DNA of 64,000 bases from Amycolatopsis rubida (lineage in GTDB: Bacteria; Actinomycetota; Actinomycetes; Mycobacteriales; Pseudonocardiaceae). How positions within the stretch are numbered: the stretch's first letter is position 1; every line of letters starts with the position of its first letter. The position numbers and the translations under genes are program-made. The notes below the pieces were generated by a model, which worked only from the letters and a program-made list of their open reading frames with translations, ran no database searches and was not told the DNA's origin. Location: positions 310,001 through 374,000 of the forward strand of contig NZ_FOWC01000008.1 in the NCBI RefSeq assembly GCF_900115345.1, given 5' to 3'. Below are positions 39,190 to 57,556 of this stretch, in pieces.

Positions 39190-40702
39190 TCGCCATTACT
39201 CCTGCGTTGCGATTGAGGAGCGTGACGAGGTGGTCGCTGCTCGGTTCCGGTGCCTCAGCCACGATGCGGTCCCGTTCGTCGTGCCCGTCCTGCGGAGTGA
39301 ACTGCTTGACCAGCTCCCGGCGCATGATCTTCCCGGTCGACGTCGCGGGAAGCAGGTCGACCGGGAAGCGAACCAGGCGCGGGCGTTTGCCGGCGGCGAG
39401 GCGTTCACTGGCATAGGCGGGCAACTCCTCCTCCGTCGCCCCGGACCTCGTCGCCGACCGGGCCCGCCGCCGTCGCGACGGCCGGGTGCGCGGCCAGCAC
39501 CCGCTCGATCTCGGCCGGGCAGACATGGTAACCGCCGGTGACGAGCATGTCCTTGCGCCGATCGACCACGAACACGTGCCCGGTTCCGTCCGTCGTGGCG
39601 ATGTCGCCGGTGTGCGACCAGCCGTCCGGCTCGATCGCCTCCGCCGTCGCCTCGGCGTTGCCGTGGTAGCCGAGCATCACCCGGTGGACCGCGCACCATC
39701 AGCTCGCCCGGCTTCCCCGCGGGCGCGTCGTGTCCCACGTCGGCGATGCGGACGTTCAGCCCGGGGAGGGCCACGCCGATGGAGCCTGGCACCGGTTGCG
39801 CGTGGAGGGTGTGGGGGTGCCCCGCAGCTCGATCAGCGGGGCACCGGAGCGCGTTTGCCGGCGCTCGGTGGTGGACAGCGGGATCGTCTGACCGCCGACG
39901 GTGCAGCGGGTCAGCGAGGACAGGTCGGCCTCGTCCAGTTCGGGGCGGACAGGCAGCATCGGGTACATCGCCGGGATGCCTTCGGCCATCGTCGCGTGGT
40001 GCTCGGTGAGGAGCCGGAGGGCCTCGGCCGCGGCGAAGCGTTCCATCAGCACGACCGTGCCGCCGGCCAGGGAGGTCCCGTTGAGGGCGACGTCGCCCTA
40101 GACTAGGGGAGCGGGCAGCGCGGTGACCACGATGTCCCGTTCGTCGCGGCCGTGCATCGTCGAGGTCAGCGCGCGGCTGAGCAGAACCGCCTGATGGTTC
40201 TGGACCGCGCCTTCGGGTGGCCAGTCGTGCCCGAGGTGTAGCCGATCGTGCAGGGCGCGGTCGGATCGGCGGTGAAGGCGGTCGGTTCGCCCTCGGCCGC
40301 GAGAAGCTCGTCGAATCCGAGCGCGCCGTCCGCGCCTCGGCCGAAGGCGACTACGGCCCGCGGGGCCGGTAGATCGCGGCTCAGCTCGGCGACCCGCGGT
40401 GCTGGTGAACACGGCGGCTGCTCCGCAGACCCGCAGCTCGAACGCCAGTTCTGCCATGGTGAGCATGACGTTCGCCGGGCCGACGACTGCGCCGGCCGGG
40501 AGAGCTCCGCGGTAGGCGGCGATCCATTCCCGCCGGTTCTGGGAGTGCAGCGATACCGGCTGCCCGGGACGGACGCCGCGTGCGAGAAGGCCGGCGAGAG
40601 CGTCGAGTTCCGCGAAGCTCAGCGTCTTCGCCGGGTGATCAACGCGGCCTTGCCGCCGAATCGCGCGGCCGCGGCTCGCGGGATGTCACCTGGACCGTTC
40701 AC
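39190..40702 (-). pseudogene. AMP-forming acyl-CoA synthetase, multiply frameshifted
   Basis: A former class I adenylate-forming enzyme. Reading from a GTG at 40702 (preceded by GAGGAGG), fragments in several frames give the TIGYTSG/PKGAVQNHQAVL P-loop region, VVLMERFAAAEALRLLTEHH, VMLGYHGNAEATAEAIEPDG, WSHTGDIATTDGTGHVFVVD with RRKDMLVTGGYHVCPAEIER, and the C-terminal PATSTGKIMRRELVKQF lysine motif. Frame changes occur at no fewer than four places, and part of the P-loop is disrupted. It lies back to back with the dikinase operon and may once have been part of the same pathway. Confidence 0.8.
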
Positions 40703-40933: not shown

Positions 40934-41350
40934 ATGGGCGAGGTTCTGGCAGAGGGCTACAACGTCTTCGATACGACGAAATCGCCGAGCGGGACGGTGA
41001 AATACCTGTCGTCGCCTGCCGAAGTGATCTCCCTGATCCAGTCCGGCAAGCTCAAGGACCACATCCTGCTCGTCCGCGGCGGCACGACGACCTTCCTCGC
41101 CCCCGCGCTGAGCATGGGTGCGATCGGCGTGATCACGATGTCGGGTGCGCCGGAGTCGCACCTGGGCATCCTCTCCCGGGAATTCCAGACGCCGTGCGTG
41201 ATGACCGCGCACCTCACCGCCAGCGAGTCGCGGTACGTCGTCGGCAACACCGACGAGGCGCACTTCGAGGAGATCGCGAAGGAGCTCGACGGCCGCAAGG
41301 TCCGGCTGGACTGCAGCGACCACGAGACCGGCCGGATCATCGCCGACTGA
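40934..41350 (+). CDS. Stand-alone PEP-utiliser swivelling phosphohistidine domain
   Basis: A 138-residue protein consisting only of the mobile phosphohistidine domain of PEP synthase/pyruvate phosphate dikinase. The core reads VRGGTTTFLAPALSMGAIGV, then the active-site loop SGAPESHLGILSREFQTPCV with candidate phosphohistidine His76, and RKVRLDCSDHETGRII at the end. In large dikinases this domain shuttles phosphate between ATP-grasp and acceptor domains; here it is a separate protein, as in multi-subunit phenylphosphate synthase-like systems. ATG follows AAGGAGGAACGA. First gene of an operon with two unknown proteins and a dikinase that has its own His domain. Confidence 0.8.
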   Translation: MGEVLAEGYNVFDTTKSPSGTVKYLSSPAEVISLIQSGKLKDHILLVRGGTTTFLAPALSMGAIGVITMSGAPESHLGILSREFQTPCVMTAHLTASESRYVVGNTDEAHFEEIAKELDGRKVRLDCSDHETGRIIAD

Positions 41351-41392
41351 TCGCCATCGAAACCACTTCGCTTTCCTCGAAGGAGTCCATGC

Positions 41393-42823
41393 ATGACGAC
41401 CACTGAAGGCAGCAAGGCGACGTACAAGAAGCGCTACGAAGACGCCGACGACGGCCTCCGATTCCAGGAGCTGACCTACACCGGCAACTTCGTCGGCATG
41501 GAACCGGTCACCGACGGCATCCTCGGCGACAAGATGATGCGCGCCCGTGCCAAGAGCGGCGTGCTGGAGCGGGTGTCCAAAGAGGACGTCCTGCGCGCCG
41601 AGTTCACGATCGACGAGCTGAACGACCTCAACAACTACCTGGCCTGGAACATCTGGGACGTCCTGGTCATGCGCGCCACCGAAGGCGTCTCGGGGATGAT
41701 TCCGCGTCAGGAGTACGAAATCCTGGCGTTCATGCACGAGTTCTACCGCTGGCCGGAACTCCTGCGGATGACCACCGACGAGGTCGGCGCGCAGGGGGTC
41801 ATGGACATCGGAGCCACCGCCCGCCGCGAGATCGGCACGAAGGTCAACGCGGTGCACGACTGGGCCATCGGCGCGGTCGGTTTCGGAATGGGCCGCTGCG
41901 GCCTGCTCGCGCTGGAGGCGATCAAGCCCGACGAGTACATCGGCGAGTCCAACGAGATCCTCAAGTTCATGCAGCGCGTGCTGTGGGGCAAGCGGCAGGA
42001 CGGCTACATCCTCAACTCGCAGGACCGCTACCGCTGCCGCATCCACGAAGCGGATTTCCTGGAGCAGATCACCTCGCAGAGCGAGCCGCTGGAAGCGGGC
42101 AGCCCGGCCCACTCGGCGTTCACGCAGTTCAACGCCGCGGCCGAACTGCTGTCCTTCCTGGACCACTACGACTGCCGGCTCGGGCTCGGCGACACCGGGC
42201 CCTACGAGCTGCCGGACGGCCGGTTGCTGATCCTGCGGGACCTGTTCGTCAACGAAGAGGTCTTCCACTGGAGCGACGTGTGCGAGGACGAGAAGCTCCC
42301 GCACTGCTACACCCTCGCCCTCACCATCGACCCGGAGAAGATGGGGCTCAACGAGATCCGGGTCAACGACATCTCGACGACGTTCACCCGGCCGAAGAAC
42401 TACATCGAAGCCATCGTCGGGGGCGCGGTGTTCGCCCGCGAGAAGTGGAACACCCCGATGGGCGAGGTCTACCCGATCAAGATCGCCGACCTCGGCGACC
42501 ACCTGACCCGGGTGCAGAACGCGACCCTGAAGCTGTACGCGAAGACGTCGAAGATGTGCCGTCGCGACCTGATCTGGAACGGTCAGTACGTCTACTACGT
42601 CGACATGATCCTCCCGCACCTGCGGCTGGCAGGCACCTACGAAAAGGCCTGCCGCGACTACGACCTGTGGGAGGTCGACCAGCGCGTCGCGAACTACTAC
42701 TACGACATCACCAAGCGCGGCTTCGCCCAGGAGACGGTGCCCAGCAAGATCTTCTCCGGCGCCGGCTACCTGCCGTTCCCGGACGGCGCGGACGTGCGCC
42801 GATCGAAGTACCGCTGGCTCTGA
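41393..42823 (+). CDS. Unknown protein of the dikinase operon
   Basis: A 476-residue soluble protein that I do not recognise. It is rich in aromatic and acidic residues, with stretches such as AEFTIDELNDLNNYLAWNIW, EILAFMHEFYRWPELLRMTT, AVHDWAIGAVGFGMGRCGLL, RPKNYIEAIVGGAVFAREKW and YVDMILPHLRLAGTYEKACR. No signal peptide, nucleotide-binding loop or metal motif stands out. ATG at 41393 follows AAGGAGTCC. Its position between a phosphohistidine domain and a dikinase makes it a candidate for the acceptor-substrate-binding or catalytic subunit. A 28-base palindrome lies directly after its stop. Confidence 0.7.
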   Translation: MTTTEGSKATYKKRYEDADDGLRFQELTYTGNFVGMEPVTDGILGDKMMRARAKSGVLERVSKEDVLRAEFTIDELNDLNNYLAWNIWDVLVMRATEGVSGMIPRQEYEILAFMHEFYRWPELLRMTTDEVGAQGVMDIGATARREIGTKVNAVHDWAIGAVGFGMGRCGLLALEAIKPDEYIGESNEILKFMQRVLWGKRQDGYILNSQDRYRCRIHEADFLEQITSQSEPLEAGSPAHSAFTQFNAAAELLSFLDHYDCRLGLGDTGPYELPDGRLLILRDLFVNEEVFHWSDVCEDEKLPHCYTLALTIDPEKMGLNEIRVNDISTTFTRPKNYIEAIVGGAVFAREKWNTPMGEVYPIKIADLGDHLTRVQNATLKLYAKTSKMCRRDLIWNGQYVYYVDMILPHLRLAGTYEKACRDYDLWEVDQRVANYYYDITKRGFAQETVPSKIFSGAGYLPFPDGADVRRSKYRWL

Positions 42824-42841
42824 TCCCTTCCGTATCCGAGT

Positions 42842-42869
42842 GGACGGGGCCGGCGCGCCGGCCCCGTCC
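42842..42869. repeat. 28-base perfect palindrome between operon genes
   Basis: GGACGGGGCC, GGCGCGCC, GGCCCCGTCC is one continuous perfect palindrome in the 66-base gap between the 476-residue and the 206-residue genes. As RNA it would form a very stable GC hairpin. No T-run follows, so it may be an attenuator or an mRNA-stabilising/processing structure rather than a simple terminator. Confidence 0.7.
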
Positions 42870-42888
42870 CCCTGGGCAAAGGACGCAC

Positions 42889-43509
42889 ATGACTGTGGCC
42901 GCTCTCGAAAAAACCGATTACGACGTTCTCAACACCATCACGCTGAAGAAGATGGCCACCCCCGCCGCCGTCGTGCGGGCAAGCGGCCGCGACACCGCCG
43001 AAGTCGAGACCGCGTTCGAGCGCCTCGCCGCGCAAGGTCTCGTGGCCGTGGCCTCGGGAGCGGCTCTGCCCACCGACGAGGCCGAGCCCGCGCTCCTCGA
43101 CGCTGCGGCACGGATCTACGCTTCCGTCCGGACCGACCCGCTCGTCGGCTCGCTGGTCGAGAAATTCGAGACGGTGAACCGGCACTTCCTCAAGACGATG
43201 TCCTCGTGGCAGCTGATCGACGCCGGCGGCAAGAAGATCGCCAACACCCACACCGATTCGGCCTACGACGACAAGGTCGTCTTCCGGCTCGGCCGGCTGA
43301 TCCAGCAACTGGTTCCGCTGCTCGACGCGCTCGCCGAGCACGACCGCCGGTTCGCGATGTACCAGCGCCGGTTCACCGCCGCCACTCACGCGGTCGACCG
43401 CGGCGAACACGAGCTCGTGTCCTCGCCCACCGCCGACTCGATCCACAACATCTGGTTCGAGTTCCACGAGGACCTGCTGCGCACGCTGGGCCGGGAACGC
43501 GCCGAATGA
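42889..43509 (+). CDS. Unknown wHTH-like protein of the dikinase operon
   Basis: A 206-residue protein without a recognised family. The N-terminal 60 residues look like a winged helix (VLNTITLKKMATPAAVVRAS, EVETAFERLAAQGLVAVASG); the remainder is helical (LVEKFETVNRHFLKTMSSWQ, RLGRLIQQLVPLLDALAEHD). ATG at 42889 follows AAAGGACGC. Its end overlaps the dikinase start by four bases (ATGA), so the two are likely made in equal amounts and may form a complex. It could be a subunit of the dikinase rather than a DNA-binding regulator. Confidence 0.65.
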   Translation: MTVAALEKTDYDVLNTITLKKMATPAAVVRASGRDTAEVETAFERLAAQGLVAVASGAALPTDEAEPALLDAAARIYASVRTDPLVGSLVEKFETVNRHFLKTMSSWQLIDAGGKKIANTHTDSAYDDKVVFRLGRLIQQLVPLLDALAEHDRRFAMYQRRFTAATHAVDRGEHELVSSPTADSIHNIWFEFHEDLLRTLGRERAE

Positions 43510-46007
43510 GCGGAAAGGCGGACCCGGTGCAGAACCCGCAGTTCACTCTCCGGTTCGACGAAGCCGACCCGGAGGCGGTCGACCGCCTCGGCGGCAAGGG
43601 CGCCGGCTTGGCGCGCATGGCCCAGCAGGGGTTGCGCGTCCCGCCGGGGTTCATCGTCGCCACGGACGCCTGCCGGAACTACCTTGAGGAAGACAGCATG
43701 CCGGCCGGCCTGCTGGACGAGGTCTACGCGCGGCTGGCCGAGCTCGAGGCCGCGACCGGCAAGACATTCGGCGCCGGCCCGACGCCGCTGCTGCTCTCGG
43801 TGCGCTCCGGGGCTCCGGTGTCGATGCCGGGGATGATGGACACCATCCTCAACCTCGGCGTGTGCCGCGACGCTGCGATCGCCCTGGCCGCGGCGACGGG
43901 CGATGTCCGGTTCGTGGCGGATCTGGTCGCGCGGTTCCACTCCATGTACGGGGAGATCGTCCTCGGCGCGTTCGGCGACGACACGTCGCTGGACGATCTC
44001 GTCGCGATCGAGGCGGCTGACGACCCTGGCGCGGTTTTCGACCGGGTGTGGGCGGCCTGCTCCGAGCGTCTGCTGGACGAAACCGGCGAGCGGGTCCCCG
44101 AAGATCCGCGGGAGCAGCTGGCCGGCGCGGTGCGGGCGGTGTTCGGTTCGTGGAACAACAGCCGGGCTCGCACCTACCGCGAGTTCCACCGGATCCCGCA
44201 CGACATCGGCACGGCCGTCGTGGTCCAGTCGATGGTGTTCGGCACCATCAGCCAGGACTCGGGGTCGGGCGTGGTCTTCACCCGGGACCCGGCCACCGGC
44301 GAACCGGGTTTGTTCGGCGAGTACCTCGCCCACAGCCAGGGCGAGGACGTCGTCGCCGGAACGCGCACGCCTGATCCGGTCCGGGACGCGCTGCCGGCAC
44401 CGGTGTTCGAAGAGCTGGAGCGAACCTGCTCGGCACTGGAAGGACAGCTCGGCGACGTCCTCGACATCGAATTCACCGTAGAACGGTCGACGCTGTACTT
44501 CCTGCAGGTCCGCAGCGCCAAGCGCACGGCCGAGGCCGCGGTGCGGATCGCCGCCGACTTTCTCGCCGACGGCTCCGTCTCGCCCGCGAAGGTCCTTTCG
44601 CGCGTCACCTCCGAGCACGTCCGGCAGGTGCAGCGGCCGGGCTTCGACACCGACGAGGTGGAACGGGCTCGGGCCGGCGGGAGGCTGCTGACGACCGGCA
44701 CCGGTGCGTGCCCGGGCCAGATCAGCGGGAACCTCGTGCTCGATCCCGATCGAGCGAAGGCTGAGGCCGCGGCGGGCCGTGACGTCGTCCTCGCCCGCGC
44801 GGTGACCAGCCCGGCAGACCTGCACGGCATGATCGCCGCCCAGGGCATCGTGACCGCTACCGGCGGATCCACCAGTCACGCCGCCGTGGTCGCGCGGGCG
44901 TTGGGCAAGGTGTGCGTCGTGGGCGCCTCGGCGATGAAGATCGACTCGGCCGCCCGGACGGCCACCGTCGACGGACAGGTCCTGGCCGAGGGAGAGCCCG
45001 TTTCCCTCGACGGAGCCACCGGCGAGGTCTTCACCGGCGAGTTCACGCGCGGAACGCCCGCGGCGGCCAGTGGTGCCCTCGGCGCTCTGCTGGACGCCGC
45101 GAGCCGCCAGCTGACCGACGTCGCGGTCTTCGGCAAGGTAACGCTGCCCGGCGATGTCGAGACCGCGCTGTCGGCCGGCGCCCACGGACTGGTGACCGCC
45201 CTCGACGACGTCCTCGCCGCGACGGGCCACCTGGACGCGCTCGTCGAGGCGCTGATGCGGGACGGAGCAGCCGATGCCGACCGGTTCGGCTCGGTCGCCG
45301 ACATCGTCGCCGCGGAGTTCACGCCGCTGCTGCGCGAGGCCGGCCGCGTCGAAGTCGGCGTACGCGCCATCGACCTGGTCTCCGACGAGTCCCGCGAGCT
45401 GATGCGGCAAACGGCCCTGACCAGCCGATACCCGGCCCTCGCGGTGCCACTGGGCATTCCGGCGCTGGTCGAGGCCCAGCTCGCCGGGCTTCGGCGGGCC
45501 ATCCGCGACTCCGGGACGCCCGCGAAGGTCCACCTCGCGATCCGGCACGTCTCGGACCCGGCTGAAGTCGTCGCCCTGCACGAGATGAGTCCGCCGGACG
45601 AGAGCGGATTGCGCGTGGGGGCGTACCTCACCAGCCCGCGGGCGCTGGCGAACTTCGCCGGCATCGCCGCGGTGGGCGATCGGATCTGGCTGGAGCTGCG
45701 GGTGCTGCAGGCGGCGATGTTCGGCATCCCGGCCCGGCAGCTGCTCACGGCGGAGCCGCTGGACAGCTATGTCAAGCGCGGCATGCTGAGCACGGATCCG
45801 CGATCCGGGATCGACCCGTCGCTCGACACGGCGTTGACACCGCTCGCCGATCGCGGCAGCGGACTCGTGGGGGTCCGGCTGTCCGGAACGGTGTCGGAAT
45901 CGCTGGTCGCCGGGCTTTACGGCAAAGGTTTCCGGCGGTTCGCCGTGGACGCCGGCGAGACCCGGCCGGCGCTGCTGGCCCTGGCCAAGGCCGCGGCAGC
46001 CGGGTGA
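43506..46007 (+). CDS. Pyruvate phosphate dikinase-like enzyme, divergent acceptor domain
   Basis: An 833-residue dikinase. The ATP-grasp part is well conserved: RLGGKGAGLARMAQQGLRVP (residues about 28-46) and SVRSGAPVSMPGMMDTILNL (98-117). The swivelling domain has TATGGSTSHAAVVARALGKV with His458 as phosphate carrier. The C-terminal 330 residues keep a TIM-barrel-like pattern but lack the RTEHMF and CGEHGG signatures of true pyruvate/PEP barrels (the corresponding strand reads SAGAHGLVTALDDVLA). It therefore probably transfers phosphate from ATP to another acceptor. Its neighbours, a second stand-alone His domain and two unknown proteins, support a multi-component phosphotransferase. A hairpin terminator follows. 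Confidence 0.8.
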   Translation: MSGKADPVQNPQFTLRFDEADPEAVDRLGGKGAGLARMAQQGLRVPPGFIVATDACRNYLEEDSMPAGLLDEVYARLAELEAATGKTFGAGPTPLLLSVRSGAPVSMPGMMDTILNLGVCRDAAIALAAATGDVRFVADLVARFHSMYGEIVLGAFGDDTSLDDLVAIEAADDPGAVFDRVWAACSERLLDETGERVPEDPREQLAGAVRAVFGSWNNSRARTYREFHRIPHDIGTAVVVQSMVFGTISQDSGSGVVFTRDPATGEPGLFGEYLAHSQGEDVVAGTRTPDPVRDALPAPVFEELERTCSALEGQLGDVLDIEFTVERSTLYFLQVRSAKRTAEAAVRIAADFLADGSVSPAKVLSRVTSEHVRQVQRPGFDTDEVERARAGGRLLTTGTGACPGQISGNLVLDPDRAKAEAAAGRDVVLARAVTSPADLHGMIAAQGIVTATGGSTSHAAVVARALGKVCVVGASAMKIDSAARTATVDGQVLAEGEPVSLDGATGEVFTGEFTRGTPAAASGALGALLDAASRQLTDVAVFGKVTLPGDVETALSAGAHGLVTALDDVLAATGHLDALVEALMRDGAADADRFGSVADIVAAEFTPLLREAGRVEVGVRAIDLVSDESRELMRQTALTSRYPALAVPLGIPALVEAQLAGLRRAIRDSGTPAKVHLAIRHVSDPAEVVALHEMSPPDESGLRVGAYLTSPRALANFAGIAAVGDRIWLELRVLQAAMFGIPARQLLTAEPLDSYVKRGMLSTDPRSGIDPSLDTALTPLADRGSGLVGVRLSGTVSESLVAGLYGKGFRRFAVDAGETRPALLALAKAAAAG

Positions 46008-46425: not shown

Positions 46426-47166
46426 TCAGGGTGCGGCGGTCTGCAGCAGGCCGGCCTTGAGGCGATCGATCACTGCGTCCGGGACGCCGCGGGTGCGTGC
46501 CCACCCCTTGGCGCCGTTGAACTGCTTGTCGAGGTGGTCGAGGAACGCCTGGATGGTGTTCTCGTCGGTCTGGTAGAGCTGGGGCGGCACCGCGGCCATG
46601 TGGTCGCGGTAGTAGGGCCATCGCCGGAACCGCTCGACGATGCGCGGCATGTTCTGCTGCGTCGTGAGGTAGTCGCGGACGATCTCCTCGCGCTGAACGC
46701 CGAGCAGCGACAGCACGAGGGCCGTGACGACACCGGTCCGGTCTTTGCCTGCCGCGCAGTGGAACACCGCGGGCCGGCCCGCCAGCGCGGCGAGGAACCG
46801 CACCACGTTCGTCAGCATCGCGCCGGAGGCCGTCAACGTCTGCAGGTAGAACTGAAGCGTCTGCTCCGCGGGGTCCAGGTCGGTCACCGGCGCGTCGCGC
46901 AGCGGGGCGTTGAGGTAGCAGACCGCCGCGCGGGCGAGGAGCCCGCGGCCCTGTTCGACGGCTTCGGCTCCGCCGCGCAAATCGACGATCAGCTCGACGC
47001 CGAGCACGTCGACCAGGTTGGCGGCGTCCTGCTCGGTCAGCGCCTGAAGGGTGTCGCTGCGAAACAGCGCACCGGCGCGGACTTTGTGTCCATCGCCGGT
47101 GCGCAGTCCGCCGAGATCGCGGAAGTTGTACGCGCCGGTCAAGCCGGGGGAGAGATCGAACGGCAT
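46426..47166 (-). CDS. Tyrosine-protein-phosphatase-like hydrolase
   Basis: A 246-residue protein of the bacterial tyrosine/dual-specificity phosphatase family (Y_phosphatase3 type). The catalytic P-loop is VFHCAAGKDRTGVV with nucleophile Cys137 and the phosphate-binding Arg143. The N-terminal NFRDLGGLRTGDGHKVRAGA and GVELIVDLRG are typical of MptpB-like members. These enzymes also act on phosphoinositides and other small phosphate esters. ATG at 47166 starts one base after the HAD gene stop. With the HAD phosphatase upstream, it could act on the product of the dikinase system. Confidence 0.85.
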   Translation of the reverse strand: MPFDLSPGLTGAYNFRDLGGLRTGDGHKVRAGALFRSDTLQALTEQDAANLVDVLGVELIVDLRGGAEAVEQGRGLLARAAVCYLNAPLRDAPVTDLDPAEQTLQFYLQTLTASGAMLTNVVRFLAALAGRPAVFHCAAGKDRTGVVTALVLSLLGVQREEIVRDYLTTQQNMPRIVERFRRWPYYRDHMAAVPPQLYQTDENTIQAFLDHLDKQFNGAKGWARTRGVPDAVIDRLKAGLLQTAAP

Positions 47167-47167
47167 G

Positions 47168-48103
47168 TCAAGCCCCTTCGCAGACTCGAACGATCGCAGC
47201 CAGAAGCTCGTCCGGCACCGCCGAGCTGATCGGGGCTGGAGCGGCGAGGGAAGCGACCGCCGTGCGACGACGCTGCCGGCGCGCCGGCACCGACGGCTGC
47301 GTCTGGTCCTTGCCGTCACAGCCGCACCCGCAACCTCCTGGCCGAGCTGGTGCTGCGGTTGTCGCGGGCAGCGCGCACGCGCCGACCGGCCCCGCCGCGG
47401 CGGCATCGCCGAGAAGGTGGGCGGAAAGCTCCTGTGGCCACAGCGCGACGAACTCGGCGCCCGCGGCGGTCAGTTCCTCGACACCGTGCATGCCCCAGGC
47501 GACTCCGACCGCGCGGATGCCCGCGGCCAGCGCGTCGCGTACGTCGCCCGCCGTATCGGTCACCAGCACAGTGGCGGCGGGGTCCGGGGGGAGCACCTTT
47601 CCGGTCTCGTCGTAGTCGGCCGAACACCGCCGGCCGAACCCGCTGCCCGCGTCGGCGAGGAAGGACGTGATCGCTGTGCGTTTGTCCGGGGCGACGTCGC
47701 CGCCGAAGACGTGAGCGAAGCAGTACGCCAGGCCGTTGTCGGTCAGCACGCGCCGGAGCACCTGCATGGCGTTCGACGACATCACCGCCAGCGTGCAGTG
47801 CCCGGCCAAGGTGCGCACGACGTCGGACACGCCCGGAACCAGCGGCGGAGCATAGTCCTCGCGCAGCAGGGCCAGGAACGCGTCGGTGACTGCCGCGGCG
47901 TGTGCCTGATTGCGGCAGATCCGGCGGATCGACTCGAACACATTGCCCTGGAACAGTTCGTAGTACCGCTGCGGACTGTCGACGCCGAGGTCGAACCGGT
48001 CGTTGATCCGGGAGAAGATCTCCCAGGACGCGGTTCTCGTCTGGACCAGCGTGCCGTCGAGGTCGAAGAGCACCGCCCGTACCGGGCGTGTCGGGGCTGC
48101 CAT
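47168..48103 (-). CDS. HAD phosphatase with Cys motif and candidate encapsulation tail
   Basis: A 311-residue HAD hydrolase. Motif I is AVLFDLDGTLVQTRT, motif II LAVMSSNA, motif III the lysine of GGDVAPDKRTAI and motif IV VLVTDTAGDVRDALAAG, as in phosphoglycolate-phosphatase-like enzymes. After the usual end at about residue 235 there is an unusual extension: a CGCGCD cluster (Cys258, 260, 262), a basic linker, and a final amphipathic stretch SAVPDELLAAIVRVCEGA. A linker plus short C-terminal helix is the layout of encapsulation peptides that target cargo into microcompartments, and shell genes lie just beyond the next gene. Targeting is inferred, not shown. Confidence 0.8.
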   Translation of the reverse strand: MAAPTRPVRAVLFDLDGTLVQTRTASWEIFSRINDRFDLGVDSPQRYYELFQGNVFESIRRICRNQAHAAAVTDAFLALLREDYAPPLVPGVSDVVRTLAGHCTLAVMSSNAMQVLRRVLTDNGLAYCFAHVFGGDVAPDKRTAITSFLADAGSGFGRRCSADYDETGKVLPPDPAATVLVTDTAGDVRDALAAGIRAVGVAWGMHGVEELTAAGAEFVALWPQELSAHLLGDAAAAGPVGACALPATTAAPARPGGCGCGCDGKDQTQPSVPARRQRRRTAVASLAAPAPISSAVPDELLAAIVRVCEGA

Positions 48104-48105
48104 GA

Positions 48106-49092
48106 TCAGGCCTTGTTGTAGGCGGCGCCGAGTTCGCCGAGGCCGATGAAGTCCATGATCTCGCCGTACCCGGTCGCTCCGTCGCAGGTCCAGCGGTGCA
48201 GGCTGTTGTGCCCGACGGTGCCCGGCCACGCCTGCCACGGGAACGTCGTCAGCGCTGAGCCGCGCAGTTCGAAGGTCTCGTCCCGGGAGTCGGTGACGCG
48301 CAGCTCGACGCGTTCGGGATAGAACCCGGAGCGCCACGTCGTCCCCTCGCCGGCCTTGAGGCCGTGGACCTCGCCGTGGTCGAGCACGTAGCCGTGGGTC
48401 AGCTGCAGCGGTCCGGGTGCGTCCGGGCCGGTGCCGGTGGTGAAGTCGAACAGCGCGTGCACGGCGAACTCGGGGGAGAAGTGCGCGTGCAGCCAGCTCA
48501 GCCGGGAGGTCTGCCGCTCGGCGCGGACGCCCCAGCTGTGGTCCATCGTGGACACGCAGTCGATGGGCAGCCGGTCGCCGCGCAGCGAGATCTCCCCTTC
48601 GACGCGGCCGGTGAGGTCGAAGTGCCCGGCGTAGGCGTGGCCCCAGGTGAGGTCCATGTCGCGGCCGGCGGCGAGCGGGTCCTGGCCGGGGTCGTTGATG
48701 TCGTAGGGCTCCATCAGCGCGGAGAACCGGAAGCGCAGGTCGAGCTGGGCGGCCGGGTCGGTGTAGGCGACGTCCCAGATCTGGTTGGGCTCGACGCAGT
48801 CGACGGTCAGGCCGTTGGCCAGCTCGTAGTGCAGCAGGTTGCCCGGTTTGGGCAGGGCCAGGTGCTCCCATGCGTCCCAGTAGTCGGCGGACCACGGCGT
48901 CGTCACGCGCTTGCTGTTGACCGACACTGTCGAACCGGCGACGCCGAGGGGCTCGCGGAAGAGGCCGTAGACGCCGATGTTCACCGGCGTCGCGGTGTCC
49001 TGGCCGGCGTAGAGGCCGAAGTAGTTGGTTTCGGCCCACAACGGGTCTTCGCTGGTCGGCGGGTGGAACTGTGCGTCTTCGGGACGGATCAC
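48106..49092 (-). CDS. DUF7065/DUF7064-type (CrtC-like lipocalin fold) protein
   Basis: A 328-residue soluble protein. The start FHPPTSEDPLWAETNYFGLY and the later VSTMDHSWGVRAERQTSRLS resemble the DUF7065/DUF7064 pair common in mycobacteria and relatives, a two-barrel fold related to hydroxyneurosporene synthase (CrtC)/AttH proteins. Some fold relatives add water across double bonds of terpenoids, others bind hydrophobic ligands; the role here is unknown. GTG at 49092 has CAGGAGGG upstream. It is first in an operon with two phosphatase genes and diverges from the microcompartment operon with a 222-base promoter region between. Confidence 0.7.
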   Translation of the reverse strand: MIRPEDAQFHPPTSEDPLWAETNYFGLYAGQDTATPVNIGVYGLFREPLGVAGSTVSVNSKRVTTPWSADYWDAWEHLALPKPGNLLHYELANGLTVDCVEPNQIWDVAYTDPAAQLDLRFRFSALMEPYDINDPGQDPLAAGRDMDLTWGHAYAGHFDLTGRVEGEISLRGDRLPIDCVSTMDHSWGVRAERQTSRLSWLHAHFSPEFAVHALFDFTTGTGPDAPGPLQLTHGYVLDHGEVHGLKAGEGTTWRSGFYPERVELRVTDSRDETFELRGSALTTFPWQAWPGTVGHNSLHRWTCDGATGYGEIMDFIGLGELGAAYNKA

Positions 49093-49314: not shown

Positions 49315-49608
49315 ATGCAGCTCGCGACAGTGCTTGGTCAGGTCGTGGCGACCGTGAAGGAACCGAAGCTCGGCCTCTTCACGCTGCTGCTGGTGCAGGA
49401 CGCTGTGGATGCCGATGTCACACAACCGGGCGGCGCGGTGTACGTGGCGGTCGACCAATCGGGTGCGGGAACCGGCGAGGTCGTGCTCGTCGCGCGTGGG
49501 GGCGCGGCCAGAGCCGCCGTCGGTCCCGACGTGCCCACGGACCGGGCAGTGGTGGCGATCGTCGACTCGGTCGTCCGCGCGGGAGAAGTCACGTACCAGA
49601 AGGCGTGA
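49315..49608 (+). CDS. BMC pentamer shell protein (EutN/CcmL family)
   Basis: A 97-residue BMC-P protein that would close the vertices of the polyhedral shell. The start [19 protein letters not shown] and the end [19 protein letters not shown] match the EutN/CcmL beta-barrel, with [20 protein letters not shown] as the central turn. ATG at 49315 follows GGAGGTGACC. It is the first gene of the shell operon and should be made in low copy relative to hexamers. Confidence 0.9.
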
Positions 49609-49640
49609 CCGGAGCGAACACGGAAATCCAGGAGGAACGG

Positions 49641-49967
49641 ATGGCTACAACGACGGCCGCCGGCGGCGGCGCGCCCGCGCTGCGCGGGGCGCTCGGCTTG
49701 ATCGAAACCAAGGGCTTGGTCGGGGCGATCGAAGCCGCCGACGCGATGGTCAAGGCGGCCAACGTGCAGATTCTCGGCCACCGCGAAATCGGCGGCGGCC
49801 TGGTCACCGTGATGGTGCGCGGGGACGTCGGTGCGGTGAAGGCCGCCACCGACGCCGGCGCGGTCGCCGCGGGCAAGGCAGGCGAGGTCGTCTCGGTGCA
49901 CGTGATCCCGCGTCCGCACGACGAGACCGAAGGGATCCTCGCGATCCTGACCCGCCCCAAGAGCTGA
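49641..49967 (+). CDS. BMC hexamer shell protein
   Basis: A 108-residue BMC-H protein (PduA/EutM-type) that tiles the shell facets. After a 14-residue flexible start it reads [20 protein letters not shown], with [20 protein letters not shown] and [14 protein letters not shown], the canonical BMC fold. It is strongly similar to the second hexamer gene at the far end of the locus. ATG at 49641 follows GGAGGAACGG. Confidence 0.93.
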
Positions 49968-49980
49968 GAGGGGTCCGCCC

Positions 49981-51369
49981 ATGACCGCCTCACTGGACGC
50001 CGACCTGGCCGGTCTGGCCGATGTCCGGGCCAAGGCCCGGGCCGCGCGACGCGCGTTCGACCAGCTTGAGGGCACCGACCAGGAGACCCTCGACCGTTAC
50101 GTGCGGGCGATGGCGCTGGCCGGTACCGCAGCGGCCGAGGAACTGGCCAGGCTGGCTGTGGACGAGACCGGCTACGGGGTCTACGAGCACAAGATCTACA
50201 AGAACCGGTACAACACCGGATTCGTCGCCAAGTGGATGCTCGAGCGCCGCGCGGTCGGCGTGCTCTGGGTCGACGAGCCGTCGCGGGTGACCGCGGTCGG
50301 CGTGCCGATGGGGGTGATCGCCGGCATCATCCCGGTCACCAATCCCACCTCCACGGCGCTGTTCAAGAGCTTGGCCGCGGTCAAGTCCGGCAACGCGATC
50401 GTGCAAGCCCCGCACCCCCGCGCGGCCAAGTGCACGCTGCGTGCGGCCGAGATCATGGCCGAGGCCGCGGTCGCGGCCGGTGCTCCGGACGGGCTCGTCT
50501 CGTGTCTGGAGAACCCCACTCTCCCGGCCACCGCCGAGCTCATGAGCCGGCCGGAGATCGCTCTCGTGATGGCCACCGGCGGGCCTGGCATGGTCCGCGC
50601 GGCCTACTCCAGCGGAAAGCCGACCATCGCCGTCGGAGCGGGCAACGTGCCGGCCTATGTCGGAGCGAGCGCGGCCGACGTCGGCGAGGCCGCCGAAATG
50701 ATCATCACGTCGAAGTCGTTCGACAACGGCACCGCGTGCGTGGCCGAGCAGTCGGTGGTGGTCGTCGAGGCCGTGGCGCCGGAGTTTTCCCGGGAGTTCC
50801 AGTCCCGGGGAGCGGTGTTCCTGGACGCCGGGCAGCAAGACGCGCTCGCTCGCGTCCTGTTCGACGAGCGCGGCGGGCTGCGGCCCGCCGCGGTCGGGCA
50901 GACCGCCGCCCGGCTCGCCGAGCTGGCCGGCTTCGGTGTGCCGGCCGGGACCCGGGTGCTGGCCGCACAGCTCGACAAGGTCGGCGAGGACGTTCTGCTC
51001 TCCCGCGAGATCCTGGGGCCGGTGCTGTCGGTCTACCGGGTCCGGGACGCCGCGGAGGGACGGCGGCGCTGCCGGGAGATCCTCGCGCTCGGCGGCGAAG
51101 GCCACACGTGCGCCGTCCACGCGCAAGATCCGGCCGAGATCGCGCCGTTCGGGACGCTGCCCGCGGGCCGGATCGTGATCAACACCCCGGCGTTGTTCGG
51201 CGGGATGGGCTACTCCACCGACGTCGACCCGTCCTTCCAGCTGGGCACCGGCACATGGAGCGGTTCGATCTGCTCGGACAACGTCACCCCGCTGCACCTG
51301 ATCAACATCAAGCGGATCGCCCACGAGGTGCGCCCCTGGCGGACCGTGTACGACCCGGTGGAGCTGTGA
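49981..51369 (+). CDS. CoA-acylating aldehyde dehydrogenase of the microcompartment
   Basis: A 462-residue aldehyde dehydrogenase of the EutE/PduP/SauS class, oxidising an aldehyde with NAD+ and CoA to acyl-CoA. Key elements: GVIAGIIPVTNPTSTALFKS (cofactor-site loop), VMATGGPGMVRAAYSSGKPT, the nucleophile cysteine in NGTACVAEQSVVVV, and the C-terminal SICSDNVTPLHLINIKRIAH typical of microcompartment enzymes. No terminal encapsulation helix is evident. RBS GAGAGGGGTC upstream; its stop overlaps the next start (TGATG). It is the central catabolic enzyme inside the predicted shell; the aldehyde is not known. Confidence 0.88.
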   Translation: MTASLDADLAGLADVRAKARAARRAFDQLEGTDQETLDRYVRAMALAGTAAAEELARLAVDETGYGVYEHKIYKNRYNTGFVAKWMLERRAVGVLWVDEPSRVTAVGVPMGVIAGIIPVTNPTSTALFKSLAAVKSGNAIVQAPHPRAAKCTLRAAEIMAEAAVAAGAPDGLVSCLENPTLPATAELMSRPEIALVMATGGPGMVRAAYSSGKPTIAVGAGNVPAYVGASAADVGEAAEMIITSKSFDNGTACVAEQSVVVVEAVAPEFSREFQSRGAVFLDAGQQDALARVLFDERGGLRPAAVGQTAARLAELAGFGVPAGTRVLAAQLDKVGEDVLLSREILGPVLSVYRVRDAAEGRRRCREILALGGEGHTCAVHAQDPAEIAPFGTLPAGRIVINTPALFGGMGYSTDVDPSFQLGTGTWSGSICSDNVTPLHLINIKRIAHEVRPWRTVYDPVEL

Positions 51370-52196
51370 TGCCGGCGGTCGCCAACACCTCGGGCTCTGT
51401 GGTCGAGCTGCTGCGGGCGGGCGCGCGGTGTGCTGCCCGGCCGCCCGCGGAGGTCTCGGCGGACACCCTGCGGGTCGGTGTCGACCTCGGCACGGCGAGT
51501 TGCGTGCTCGTCGTGCTCGACGGCGACGACCAGCCGGTCTGGGTGGACAGCTACCCCTCCGGCGCGCTGCGCGACGGTGTCGTGGTCGATTTCGCCCGTG
51601 CCGCGGAGACGGTCCGGCGGTTGAAGGGCCGTGCCGAGGGAGTCCTCGGCACGGCGCTGACCTCGACCGCGACCGCGTACCCGCCGTGCATCCCCGAGAA
51701 GGACGCGAAGGCCTGCACCTACGTCTGCGAGGCCGCCGGATTCGAGGACGCGGTACTGGTGGACGAGGTCACGGCCGCCCAGCGGACCCTTGAGGTGTCC
51801 GACGGGGTGGTCGTCGACGTCGGCGGCGGATCGACCGGGACCGGGGTGTTCCGCGGCGGCGAGCTGGTCGCGCTCGACGACCGGGCCGGCGGCGGTCACC
51901 ACCTCGACCTGATGCTCGCCGGCGCCCTGGCGGTCAGCGTCGAGGACGCCGAAGCGTACAAGCGGGAAAACCCGGAAAAGGCGCTGCCGATCCTCGTGCC
52001 CGGCCTGCAGCGGATCGCCGAATCGGTGCGGGCGATGACCGCAGGCGCCGAGGAACTCCCGCTGTACCTGGCGGGTGGCGCCCTGATGATCGCCGGCGCG
52101 GGAGACGTGCTGGCCAAGTACCTGGAAAGGCCGGTCATGACCTATCCGCACGCCCTGCTCATCACCCCGCTCGGGATCGCGAGGTCGGCGGCATGA
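51369..52196 (+). CDS. EutJ-like actin-fold ATPase
   Basis: A 275-residue protein of the EutJ family, an actin/Hsp70-fold chaperone-like protein found in microcompartment operons. The phosphate-1 loop is VGVDLGTASCVLVVLDGDDQ, phosphate-2 VVVDVGGGSTGTGVFRGGEL, and the adenosine region LYLAGGALMIAGAGDVLAKY. The N-terminal 30 residues precede the fold. It probably assists assembly or reactivation of the encapsulated enzymes. It overlaps the previous stop by one base and the next start by four. Confidence 0.85.
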   Translation: MPAVANTSGSVVELLRAGARCAARPPAEVSADTLRVGVDLGTASCVLVVLDGDDQPVWVDSYPSGALRDGVVVDFARAAETVRRLKGRAEGVLGTALTSTATAYPPCIPEKDAKACTYVCEAAGFEDAVLVDEVTAAQRTLEVSDGVVVDVGGGSTGTGVFRGGELVALDDRAGGGHHLDLMLAGALAVSVEDAEAYKRENPEKALPILVPGLQRIAESVRAMTAGAEELPLYLAGGALMIAGAGDVLAKYLERPVMTYPHALLITPLGIARSAA

Positions 52197-52822
52197 GCGG
52201 GCCCACACTGCGCACGTACGCGTTCGTCGACCGGATGCAGCCGCAATGCGCGGCACACATCGCCGCCACCAGCCCCGGCGACGTCCCCCTGGCCGGAATG
52301 GCCGAGCTCTATATCGAGATGGCGCCGGGCAACGAGGTGTTCCGCGCCGCGGACATCGCGCTCAAAGCCGCCGGGGTGCGCCCGGCGCTGCAGATCATCG
52401 AGCGCGAGTTCGGGCTGCTGGAGATCCACTCGGAGCAGCAGGCCGAGGTTCTCGCGTCCGGCCAGGCGATCCTGGACGAGCTGGGCATGACCGAGTCCGA
52501 CCGGATCAAGCCGGCGATCGCCTCCACGCAGTTCATCACCAACGTGCACCCCTACCAGGCTCAGCTGCTCAACAAGTGGCGCAAGGGCAGCATGCTGCTG
52601 CCCGGGCAGAGCCTGTTCGTCATGGAGGTCGCGCCGGCCGCCTACATCTCGGTCGCCGCCAACGAGGCGGAGAAGGCCGCGGCGATCACCGTCATCGAAC
52701 TGCGCGCCGTCGGCCGGTTCGGCCGGATGTTCCTGTCCGGCAGCGAAAGCGAGGTGCAGACGGCCCGGGACGCGGCGGTCGCCGCGCTTGAGGACATGCA
52801 CGGCAGGGAGGACAAGCGATGA
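52193..52822 (+). CDS. BMC trimer shell protein (tandem BMC domains)
   Basis: A 209-residue BMC-T protein with two BMC domains forming pseudohexameric trimers. It reads RTYAFVDRMQPQCAAHIAAT, MAELYIEMAPGNEVFRAADI (domain 1) and QSLFVMEVAPAAYISVAANE with GRMFLSGSESEVQTARDAAV (domain 2). The layout is PduB/EtuB-like rather than EutL-like. Trimers of this type can have gated central pores for larger substrates or cofactors. Coupled by ATGA to both neighbours. Confidence 0.9.
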   Translation: MSGPTLRTYAFVDRMQPQCAAHIAATSPGDVPLAGMAELYIEMAPGNEVFRAADIALKAAGVRPALQIIEREFGLLEIHSEQQAEVLASGQAILDELGMTESDRIKPAIASTQFITNVHPYQAQLLNKWRKGSMLLPGQSLFVMEVAPAAYISVAANEAEKAAAITVIELRAVGRFGRMFLSGSESEVQTARDAAVAALEDMHGREDKR

Positions 52823-54063
52823 AGGTCTGGGGAGCGGGCGACGTCGACGCCGCGAGCGCGGGCACCCTGCGGGTGGGGCAGCAGGACCTCGTGACCCCGC
52901 TCGCGCGGGAACGGGCTCGCGAGCTCGGGATCGACATCGTCCTGGCCGCGCCGAATCCACCGGCGCCGCCGGTGTCACCCCCACCGGCGGCTCCACCGTC
53001 CCGGAACGCACCGCCCGCCGCCCGCCCTCCCTCGGGCAGGGGATCGGTGCCGGCGATGCGGCCGCCGTCCGGCGCGCTGTTCCGTCGCGGCGCCCCGCTG
53101 CCGCAGGGCCTGGCCGCCGGCGGGGGAGGCACCGGCCGGGTGATCGTGGTCGGCGCCGGGCACGTCGGGATGATCACCGCGCTGCGGCTCGCCGGCGCGG
53201 ACCTGTTCGACGAGATCGTGCTCGTGGACATCGACGAGGGCCGTGCGGCCGGCGTCGCGCTCGACCTGGCCCACACCGCCGCGCTCGGCTGCTTCGCCAC
53301 GCGGGTGCGCGGGACGGGCGCCGTCGAGGACGCCGGTCCGGCCGATTACGTCGTGATCACCGCCGGTCGCCCGCGCCAGCCCGGCATGAGCCGCTCCGAC
53401 CTGGTCAGCACGAACGCCGCCATCGTCGGCGATCTCGCCCAGCGAGTCGCGCGAACTTCGCCGGACGCGGTCATCGTCGTGGTCACCAACCCCCTCGACG
53501 AGATGACCCAGCACGCCTGGCGGTCTTCCGGCTTCCCGGCCGAACGCGTCGTCGGCATGGCCGGCGTCCTCGACACCGCTCGCTTCCAGGCGCTGTCCGC
53601 CCTCGCGGGCGCGGGCCGCGCGGACGGCATCGACGCCGTCGCGCTCGGGAGCCACGGCGAAGAGATGGTCATCCCGCTCTCGCAGGCACGCAGCGGTGCC
53701 CGGCCGCTGACCGAGCTGGTCGACCGCGCCGCCCTGGACGCGGTTGTCGACCGCTCGCGCGGCTCCGGAGCCGAAGTCGTCGGCCTGCTCAAGACCGGCA
53801 GCGCGTTCATGGCGCCGGGCATGTCGGCCGCCCGGATGGTGCTGGCGATGGCCCGCGACACCGGCGAGGTGATGCCCGCCGCCGTGCTGGCCGACGGCAC
53901 TTACGGCATTCGCGATGTCTACGTCGGCCTGCCGGTCAGGCTCGGCCGCGGCGGAGTGCGGGAGATCGTCGAACTCGACCTGACGCCGGACGAGCTGAGC
54001 GCGCTGCGCGACGCCGCCACGCGGATCAAGGACCGGCTCCGCCAGCTCGCCGCGGTGTCCTGA
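52819..54063 (+). CDS. Malate/lactate dehydrogenase fused to BMC-type N-terminal domain
   Basis: A 414-residue fusion. Residues 1-40 (ITAGDV-like GAGDVDAASAGTLRVGQQDL then VTPLARERARELGIDIVLA) match a mini-domain seen at the N-terminus of many microcompartment proteins. Residues 42-105 are a proline-rich linker with an internal ALFRRGAPLPQG. From about 108 on is an LDH/MDH-type NAD enzyme: VIVVGAGHVGMITALRLAGA, the substrate loop RPRQPGMSRSDLVSTNA, VVVTNPLDEMTQHAW and the catalytic histidine in ALGSHGEEMV. The PGMSR loop favours malate/oxaloacetate. Inside a shell it could turn NADH back to NAD+ for the aldehyde dehydrogenase. This arrangement is unusual. Confidence 0.85.
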   Translation: MKVWGAGDVDAASAGTLRVGQQDLVTPLARERARELGIDIVLAAPNPPAPPVSPPPAAPPSRNAPPAARPPSGRGSVPAMRPPSGALFRRGAPLPQGLAAGGGGTGRVIVVGAGHVGMITALRLAGADLFDEIVLVDIDEGRAAGVALDLAHTAALGCFATRVRGTGAVEDAGPADYVVITAGRPRQPGMSRSDLVSTNAAIVGDLAQRVARTSPDAVIVVVTNPLDEMTQHAWRSSGFPAERVVGMAGVLDTARFQALSALAGAGRADGIDAVALGSHGEEMVIPLSQARSGARPLTELVDRAALDAVVDRSRGSGAEVVGLLKTGSAFMAPGMSAARMVLAMARDTGEVMPAAVLADGTYGIRDVYVGLPVRLGRGGVREIVELDLTPDELSALRDAATRIKDRLRQLAAVS

Positions 54064-55094
54064 TGCGGGCCGTCGTCTACGCCGGGCTCGGCCGGGTCGA
54101 GGTCACCGACGTGCCCGATCCGGTCCTGAAGGACCCGGCCGACGCGATCGTGCAGGTCGAGCGTGCCGCGGTATGCGGCACCGACCTGCACCTGATCGCC
54201 GACGGCGAGCATCTTCCGGCTGGGTTCGTGCTCGGCCACGAGTTCACCGGCCGCGTCGTGGACGCCGGCGCGGGCGTGTCCGCACACCGTGTCGGCGACC
54301 GGGTGGCCGGCGGCGACTTCACCGCGTGCGGAACGTGCTGGTGGTGTCGTCGCGGCGACCATTGGGAGTGCCCGCGACGGCAGTTCTTCGGCACCGGGAC
54401 CTCGTTCGGGCCGGAGCTGGCCGGAGCACAAGCCCAGCTGGTCCGCGTCCCCTTCGCTGACGCTGCGCTGCGTCCGGTTCCCGAAGAGATCAGTGCCGAC
54501 GCCGCGGTCTTCCTCGGCGACACCCTCGCCACCGCGCACGCGGCGGTCCAGCGCGCCGGGCTGCGCCCGGGAGACACCACCGTGGTCGTCGGGGGCGGCC
54601 CGGTCGGGCAGCTGACCAGCCTCGCCGCGCAGGCATGCGGTGCCGGAACCGTGGTTCTCGTCGAACCCGTCGAAGCGCGACGCGCGGCCGCGGCCGCCGA
54701 GGGGGCGCTCACCGCGGCCCCGGAGAATGCCCGTGAACTGGTGGAACGGGTGACCGCGGGCCGGGGTGCCGACGTAGTCGTCGACGCCATCGGCGGCGCT
54801 CCCGGTCTCGACACCGCGTTCGGGCTCGTCCGCCGCCGGGGCACCATCGTCTCCGTCGGGCTGCCCGCGAAGAGCTGGCCCTTGCCGGCCGGCCAGGCGT
54901 TCGCCGACGAGCTGACCTTGCGGTTCGTCATCGGTGACTTCCTGCGAGACGGCGACGACATCCTCGCCCTCGTCCGGGCCGGCGCCATCGATCCCGCGGT
55001 GGTCGCCTCGGCGACGGTTCTCCTCGCCGACGCGCCCGACGCGTACCGGCAAATGGCCGAACGACGTACGCTCAAGGCATTGATCAGGCTGTAA
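54063..55094 (+). CDS. Zinc-dependent alcohol dehydrogenase (MDR family)
   Basis: A 343-residue medium-chain dehydrogenase. Catalytic zinc ligands appear in RAAVCGTDLHLI and FVLGHEFTG; the structural zinc site is the four-Cys lobe CGTCWWCRRGDHWECP. The Rossmann fold shows VVVGGGPVGQLTSLAAQACG. It resembles threonine/sorbitol dehydrogenase-type enzymes that oxidise secondary alcohols. Its ATG overlaps the previous stop (TGATG). It may oxidise the substrate alcohol to the aldehyde or ketone handled in the microcompartment, or reduce the aldehyde as an NAD+ regenerator. No targeting peptide is seen. Confidence 0.85.
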   Translation: MRAVVYAGLGRVEVTDVPDPVLKDPADAIVQVERAAVCGTDLHLIADGEHLPAGFVLGHEFTGRVVDAGAGVSAHRVGDRVAGGDFTACGTCWWCRRGDHWECPRRQFFGTGTSFGPELAGAQAQLVRVPFADAALRPVPEEISADAAVFLGDTLATAHAAVQRAGLRPGDTTVVVGGGPVGQLTSLAAQACGAGTVVLVEPVEARRAAAAAEGALTAAPENARELVERVTAGRGADVVVDAIGGAPGLDTAFGLVRRRGTIVSVGLPAKSWPLPAGQAFADELTLRFVIGDFLRDGDDILALVRAGAIDPAVVASATVLLADAPDAYRQMAERRTLKALIRL

Positions 55095-57254: not shown

Positions 57255-57556
57255 GAGCCGAGCCCGGTCACGGCCTGGCCGATGACACCCTCGGTCTCGC
57301 CGTGCGGGCGCGGGATGACGTGCGAGGCGTACAGTTCGCCCACCGCTCCGGCGGCCGCGCTCCCAGCGTCGACAGCGGCCTTGACGGCACCCACGTCACC
57401 ACGCACGAGCACGGCGACCTGCCCGTTGCGGAGTGTGCGGTAGCCCTCGAGTTCGACGTTGGCGCTCTTGACCATCGCGTCGGCCGCTTCGATCGCGCCG
57501 ACCAGCCCCTTGGTCTCGATCAAACCCAGCGCGCCGGACCGCACGGTCTCTGCCAT
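57251..57556 (-). CDS. Second BMC hexamer shell protein
   Basis: A 101-residue BMC-H protein. [40 protein letters not shown] and [14 protein letters not shown] match the first hexamer gene closely, with most differences in the middle strand ([17 protein letters not shown]) and C-terminus. It is transcribed separately and convergent to the regulator gene; the two TAG stops overlap in a CTAG. Having its own promoter would let the facet composition vary independently. The ATG at 57556 follows ATGAGGAGTCG. Confidence 0.93.

Follow-up and report, generated by a model that had tools for sequence, protein, structure and literature searches.

What does a dikinase operon with two separate phosphohistidine domains phosphorylate when it lies beside a bacterial microcompartment (BMC)? 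The question is raised by 64,000 nucleotides of Amycolatopsis rubida DNA (contig NZ_FOWC01000008.1, positions 310,001 to 374,000; this whole stretch is called the window below), in which, as a preliminary description had stated, four plus-strand genes, here P1 to P4, occupy positions 40934-46007. The operon is real and conserved, and is tied to a known BMC type, MIC1. It probably encodes a small-molecule dikinase that starts the MIC1 pathway and acts on an acceptor other than pyruvate. The best explanation overall, which we favor by a modest measure, is that P1-P4 form a multi-subunit dikinase for a small, hard-to-oxidise tertiary alcohol, perhaps 2-methyl-3-buten-2-ol (MBO), that feeds the organelle. 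The four genes are:

40934-41350, + strand: P1, 138 aa, stand-alone swivelling phosphohistidine domain (PF00391, 32 bits, cut-off 23; E 7.6e-8)
41393-42823, + strand: P2, 476 aa, proposed acceptor-binding subunit, family unknown
42889-43509, + strand: P3, 206 aa, winged-helix-like, proposed dikinase partner subunit
43506-46007, + strand: P4, 833 aa, similar to pyruvate, phosphate dikinase (PPDK; PPDK_N 150 bits and PEP-utilizers 69 bits)

P1 is preceded by an AGGAGG site and P3 and P4 overlap by 4 bases, which makes transcription as an operon plausible; the intergenic gaps measure 42 and 65 bases. The pairing of a stand-alone His domain (His76 of P1) with a dikinase that has its own (His458 of P4), pointed out in the preliminary description, extends to the orthologues: His76 is invariant in 21/21 rows, within the invariant motif ESHLGILSREF, and His458, aligned to His455 of Clostridium PPDK, is invariant in 22/22. 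The same description took two subunits to be of unknown family. This holds for P2, which had no Pfam or NCBIfam match at E<=1, nothing convincing in the Protein Data Bank (PDB) by sequence, and no match in a fold search of the PDB with its AlphaFold (AF2) model (pTM 0.83, mean pLDDT 75). It holds less well for P3, which shows sub-threshold winged-helix matches only (HVO_A0114/TrmB/MarR, Pfam) and is probably an enzyme subunit, as argued below. Among the four, conservation is highest in P1 and P2, the mean frequency of the most common residue being 0.78 for P1, 0.82 for P2, 0.56 for P3, and 0.60 for P4; the P2 sequences of 26 other rows share 69-95% identity with that of the window, and 190 of the 476 positions never vary. 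In Actinomycetospora cinnamomea (L058 8152-10873), the P2 gene lies in two frames about 1.3 kb apart.

P4 was aligned jointly, as 22 orthologues, with Clostridium PPDK, whose residues we assume to have their usual roles at the ATP and pyruvate/Mg sites. The catalytic His and each of the six ATP-site positions examined are conserved in 22/22 orthologues. At the pyruvate site, R561 is retained in 2/22, D769 in 1/22, and E745, N768, and C831 in none; R617, kept in 22/22, is the only one of six positions to persist. Invariant positions number 86 in residues 1-360, 30 in the His domain, and 7 in the C-terminal 314 residues. A full-length alignment to PPDK structures was obtained with a profile, and the TIGR01828 score (553.3 bits) is under the curated cut-off of 843.45; no protein of the host genome exceeds that cut-off, P4 being the best match. 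On this alignment, P4 has an intact ATP-grasp and His458 domain and a degenerate C-terminal pyruvate domain, and is not an ordinary PPDK; the degeneracy of the pyruvate half argues against plain interconversion of pyruvate and phosphoenolpyruvate (PEP).

Gene fusions bear on how the subunits belong together. On plasmid pROB02 of Rhodococcus opacus B4, one 793-aa protein runs from P1 (41% identity) through P2 (37%) to P3 (hhalign probability 99.4), and P1-P2 fusions occur in further relatives. Because they form a single polypeptide in R. opacus B4, P1, P2, and P3 look like parts of one enzyme, and P3 is probably a subunit of it and a structural partner of the dikinase. P3 matches were found in 26/150 genomes of the order; a P4-like gene lies within about 1.5 kb at 14 of the 20 P3 loci examined, 4 of which also have P2. 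Together with the fusions, this adjacency suggests what looks like a split into an ATP-side module, P3/P4, and an acceptor-side module, P1/P2. Among the nine non-BMC clusters with a clear P4 (the Methylibium petroleiphilum PM1 plasmid left out), eight have a P4 of 487-592 aa without the C-terminal domain and one, L079, has a full-length P4; L072 gives only a weak P4 match.

The preliminary description had tied the operon to the adjacent BMC, and genome surveys do not separate the two. Among 56 loci retrieved from genome contigs with P2 as query, tblastn found P1 in 55, P3 in 51, P4 in 51, and all four genes in 50; 47 contain at least one shell gene and 43 a DUF7064 protein. Four of the nine loci without a shell gene are stretches of at most 11.4 kb (L007, L018, L026, L055), and two (L046, L052) come from genomes that do carry BMC genes. 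The association is nevertheless optional, as the draft genomes of Methylocella silvestris TVC (L037), Xanthobacter oligotrophicus (L044), and Endobacter medicaginis (L045) keep the operon and show no PF00936 match at E<=0.001. Because the 56 loci were chosen by close P2 similarity, a sample of 200 genomes of the family is the fairer test; a P2-family match of any kind occurs in 14 of these and a BMC match of any kind in 15. Orthologous P2 (above 570 bits, a limit set after the scores were seen, and counting G473, whose P2 is split in two) is present in nine. In each of these, the contig that carries P2 also gives three shell-gene matches, the closest at a distance of 4.7-8.3 kb and the most remote at 11.4-16.5 kb. 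A BMC-H above 90 bits occurs in ten genomes, of which only G331 lacks P2, its locus being a different one. Five genomes with only a distant P2 have no such BMC, G332 having a lower-scoring BMC pair on another contig. The association between P2 and BMC in this sample gives a Fisher p of 8.5e-15, uncorrected for kinship. The G331 locus (L077), possibly another BMC type, combines a related set of shell, aldehyde dehydrogenase, and malate dehydrogenase genes with glutamine-synthetase-like, octopine-dehydrogenase-like, and histidine-catabolism genes.

The genes flanking the operon in the window are:

39405..40700, - strand: decayed acyl-CoA ligase (tblastn 211 bits at 39495-40664; only fragments called)
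46426..47166, - strand: Y_phosphatase3-type phosphatase (PF13350, 194 bits)
47168..48103, - strand: HAD phosphatase with long C-terminal linker and terminal helix (PF13419; start ~48103 judged by eye)
48106..49092, - strand: DUF7064 protein, predicted tertiary-phosphate lyase or isomerase
49315..49608, + strand: BMC-P (EutN/CcmL) shell protein (PF03319)
49605..49967, + strand, start uncertain: BMC-H shell protein (PF00936 at G000:C13:359689-359916)
49981..51369, + strand: aldehyde dehydrogenase, CoA-acylating EutE type (TIGR02518, 472 bits, cut-off 620)
51369..52196, + strand: EutJ-like (MreB-like) protein (TIGR02529 and PF06723, both above cut-off)
52193..52822, + strand: BMC-T, CcmP-like shell protein (PF00936; NF053796, 258 bits, cut-off 340)
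52819..54063, + strand: lactate/malate-dehydrogenase-family enzyme with N-terminal extension, 414 aa frame (PF00056/PF02866)
54063..55094, + strand: zinc alcohol dehydrogenase (PF08240/PF00107)
55113..57254, + strand: GAF-PucR regulator (PF13556, PF01590)
57251..57556, - strand: second BMC-H shell protein (PF00936, 102 bits at G000:C13:367305-367532)

This locus resembles the MIC1 metabolosome, described as having an aldehyde dehydrogenase, a zinc alcohol dehydrogenase, a lactate/malate-dehydrogenase-family enzyme, an MreB-like protein, and a hydrolase/phosphatase (Axen 2014, PMC4207490); Pfam and NCBIfam scans found all of these, with shell genes, in the window. The MIC1 of that account has a further dehydrogenase besides its aldehyde dehydrogenase and two alcohol dehydrogenases, whereas none was identified among the scanned proteins of the window's BMC locus. 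The text on MIC1 names neither a phosphotransacylase (PTAC) nor a signature enzyme (PMC4207490), and it is for this vacant place that we propose the dikinase operon. The decayed acyl-CoA ligase beside P1, which has an intact relative in the corresponding position in Amycolatopsis acididurans (L005 7786-9330), probably belongs to the same pathway; the Y_phosphatase3-type phosphatase is present in 14/56 loci. In Pseudonocardia (L012, L023, L054), MetE-, MetK-, and MetF-like genes and a PfkB kinase gene, reminiscent of a methionine/S-adenosylmethionine cycle and named by eye, lie upstream of P1.

The HAD phosphatase provides a natural control for the link with the shell. In the 36 of 41 HAD genes from BMC genomes that could be measured (5 could not), the tail after the last core motif is 100-185 residues long, as against 37, 44, and 67 residues in three BMC-less genomes. 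It usually consists of a Pro/Arg/Ala-rich linker followed by a short terminal helix, for example ELLDAVRRVCR; L050 and L051, among the five unmeasured genes, have a C-terminal end without such a helix. The tail resembles an encapsulation peptide, and targeting into the shell is only probable because just 11/41 have a terminal stretch that is amphipathic at p<=0.05. No tail of this kind was seen by eye on P1-P4.

One clue to the acceptor is the DUF7064 protein, whose predicted fold matches 25-phosphosteroid lyase, of the AttH-like fold, with 16% identity to the lyase. The protein is predicted to be a tertiary-phosphate lyase or isomerase, bearing in mind that the AttH-like fold is also common to pericyclases and hydratases. 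The preliminary description had considered phenols and organic acids as acceptors; the DUF7064 fold and the gene context of relatives make a tertiary alcohol the likelier one, a choice to which we give about an even chance. The reactions, subunit roles, order of phosphotransfer, and substrate that we infer are these. P4, without a working pyruvate site, would take a phosphoryl group from ATP onto His458, releasing AMP as PPDK does; His76 of P1 would carry it to, or within, P2, the presumed site of the acceptor, P3 serving as a structural partner. The acceptor would be a small tertiary, probably allylic, alcohol, MBO being the best single guess. The DUF7064 protein would then ionise the tertiary phosphate, leading to elimination or an allylic shift, the HAD phosphatase, brought into the shell by its C-terminal tail, would release a primary alcohol, and the BMC alcohol dehydrogenase and acylating aldehyde dehydrogenase would convert it to an acyl-CoA (3-methylcrotonyl-CoA in the case of MBO).

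That the acceptor is MBO or another C5 compound is a tentative proposal, drawn from relatives. In Endobacter (L118 451-18539), a single co-directional run holds catabolic genes, DUF7064, HAD, and P1-P4, and PucR comes after it. The run has an alcohol dehydrogenase, acyl-CoA ligase, aldehyde dehydrogenase, carboxyltransferase, BioB, and biotin carboxylase, then a MaoC-type hydratase, a CitE-type lyase, and 3-oxoacid CoA-transferase A and B; BioB and the CoA-transferase pass their cut-offs, and the hydratase and lyase fall short. Compared with Pseudomonas methylcrotonyl-CoA carboxylase, the carboxyltransferase reaches 762 bits (the five entries under that name give 640-762); it scores 447 bits against geranyl-CoA carboxylase, 772, 763, and 761 bits against three otherwise labelled entries, and at most 259 against the remaining propionyl-CoA carboxylases. 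The gene order is reminiscent of a leucine route from 3-methylcrotonyl-CoA onward. In Xanthobacter, a 3-hydroxy-3-methylglutaryl-CoA lyase above cut-off lies near the operon; this and the methylcrotonyl-type carboxylase run were each found in 1/56 fetched loci. Both in BMC-bearing Rhodococcus (L028, L064) and in the BMC-less genomes, the operon is flanked by an aldehyde dehydrogenase 60-81% identical to that of Endobacter, together with ligase and alcohol dehydrogenase relatives. The PM1 plasmid carries a MIC1-type BMC locus with decayed P1/P2 remnants (L117 11089-11762) and, elsewhere, a second set, DUF7064-P2-P1-P3-PucR; a second P4 adjoins a tyrosine-type phosphatase and a Rieske oxygenase/reductase pair, which by its position we take to be MdpJK. 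Strain PM1 possibly converts MBO into prenol by isomerisation, the enzymes being described as uncharacterised at the time of that account (PMC4791888). Together, these thin links suggest a C5 tertiary allylic alcohol. A Phenol_MetA_deg-type protein, which would be compatible with a hydrophobic or volatile substrate, is encoded near the operon in Methylocella (L037 561-1499, Pfam), with tblastn relatives in Xanthobacter (L044 17131-18060) and PM1 (L116 1000-1458). The fullest version of the scheme is decidedly speculative: MIC1 would consume tertiary isoprenoid alcohols, the dikinase phosphorylating MBO at its tertiary hydroxyl, the DUF7064 isomerase moving the phosphate to the primary carbon, and the shell HAD phosphatase releasing prenol, which is oxidised to 3-methylcrotonyl-CoA while its reactive aldehyde is confined in the BMC.

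Several distant clusters weigh against a tertiary alcohol. In Rhodococcus pyridinivorans P23 (L063) and in L065, L070, L071, and L075, relatives of P1-P4 are paired with biotin carboxylase, and the carboxyltransferase of L063, the only one examined, is of the PycB type. These clusters look closer to the hydroxyacetophenone (Hpe) pathway as presented in PMC12167813, so that the wider family probably acts on several acceptors, and a tertiary alcohol would at most be the substrate of the branch with DUF7064. Weak DUF7065 matches, below cut-off, come from a protein of 377-378 aa in L071 (E 0.0044) and L063 (E 0.00028), the one in L070 giving none; in a scan of 17 stretches, PM1 alone gave a full DUF7064 match. 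An alternative that we think unlikely is that a dikinase of the same kind traps another acceptor (a hydroxyketone, phenol, or primary alcohol) by phosphorylation, a phosphatase later removing the handle. HpeHI, CreHI, and PpsAB phosphorylate phenols at the start of catabolism, trapping having been suggested (PMC12167813), and the P23 cluster follows the logic of the Hpe pathway in also having an acyl-CoA ligase, a thiolase, and a tyrosine-type phosphatase. However, it is hard to see what the lyase-like DUF7064 protein of most loci would do with a phenol or a primary phosphate, and no carboxylase or ring-cleavage enzyme was matched among the BMC-locus proteins scanned.

The comparison with these enzymes also qualifies the earlier likening of the operon to phenylphosphate synthase. 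By analogy, P1-P4 would work like HpeHI/PpsAB, in which ATP-grasp and swivelling-His parts are on separate proteins and, in the Hpe pathway, a dephosphorylation follows, resembling the phosphatase neighbors of the operon; P2 has no detected similarity to the acceptor domain of that family. In the published account, the nucleotide motif of HpeHI, CreHI, and PpsAB is nearer PEP synthase than PPDK and the swivel domain sits on the acceptor protein (PMC12167813), whereas P4 resembles PPDK, includes a His domain itself, and is joined by a separate His protein (P1), a candidate acceptor subunit (P2), and P3. The three proposed functions are shared with rifampin phosphotransferase (RPH), where, as that source describes, ATP-grasp, swivelling-His, and acceptor domains form one chain (PMC12167813). 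P2 matched neither NF041857 nor RPH PDB chains by sequence and the fold search listed none of these, which leaves homology possible.

A regulatory phosphorelay, in which P3/P4 would be a VadK-like histidine kinase phosphorylating P1 and thereby controlling pathway or shell enzymes, appears improbable. VadK (Rv1127c) of Mycobacterium tuberculosis, like the short P4s, is a PPDK-like ATP-grasp and His protein without a pyruvate domain; this truncated PPDK is reported to autophosphorylate and to regulate the methylcitrate cycle, its operonic partner Rv1126c aiding solubility (PMC13400623). We infer that Rv1126c is a P3 homologue, and the frequency of P3/P4 adjacency in the order fits such a kinase. 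P3/P4-like pairs without P2 in the stretch retrieved (L092-L102) are common in the order and may correspond to VadK and its partner. P4 differs from VadK in that a degenerate pyruvate domain remains, short forms occurring in relatives, and the available text on VadK, a regulatory kinase, mentions no P1 or P2 (PMC13400623). Against such a relay, the highest conservation falls on P1 and P2, as expected for a substrate site, BMC-less genomes keep the operon beside catabolic enzymes, and phosphatases from several families adjoin the operon or its relatives.

That P4 is an ordinary PPDK supplying PEP, with P1-P3 as accessories, is very hard to credit despite its TIGR01828 score and full-length profile alignment, given that this score is below cut-off, that five pyruvate-site positions are lost in most orthologues, and that the C-terminal domain is absent from most non-BMC relatives. 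Equally remote is the idea that operon and BMC are chance neighbors on one mobile stretch: horizontal transfer is suggested by their distribution, the window P2 being 72-77% identical to alphaproteobacterial copies (L030, L044, L045), but the association persists across phyla with differing gene orders and throughout the orthologous-P2 genomes of the family sample, and the length of the HAD tail tracks BMC presence.

A dikinase for a small tertiary alcohol has a parallel in Sterolibacterium, where 25-hydroxysteroid kinase and 25-phosphosteroid lyase phosphorylate a tertiary alcohol and then act on the phosphate, as proposed here. The steroid kinase, however, is an ATP/ADP kinase, unlike the PPDK-like multi-subunit system of the window, and the DUF7064 protein is only distantly similar to the lyase. 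The dikinase operon is a concrete candidate for the signature enzyme of MIC1, with a testable substrate. Small-molecule dikinases would gain a new arrangement of subunits, in which the acceptor candidate, P2, matched no solved fold here, and a structurally related phosphate lyase would be linked to one of them. If the MBO route is true, it would be a chemistry new to BMCs, an allylic rearrangement driven by ATP, and would fill in the uncharacterised step from MBO to prenol; aerobic bacteria could in this way open tertiary alcohols, including plant volatiles and intermediates of fuel oxygenates.

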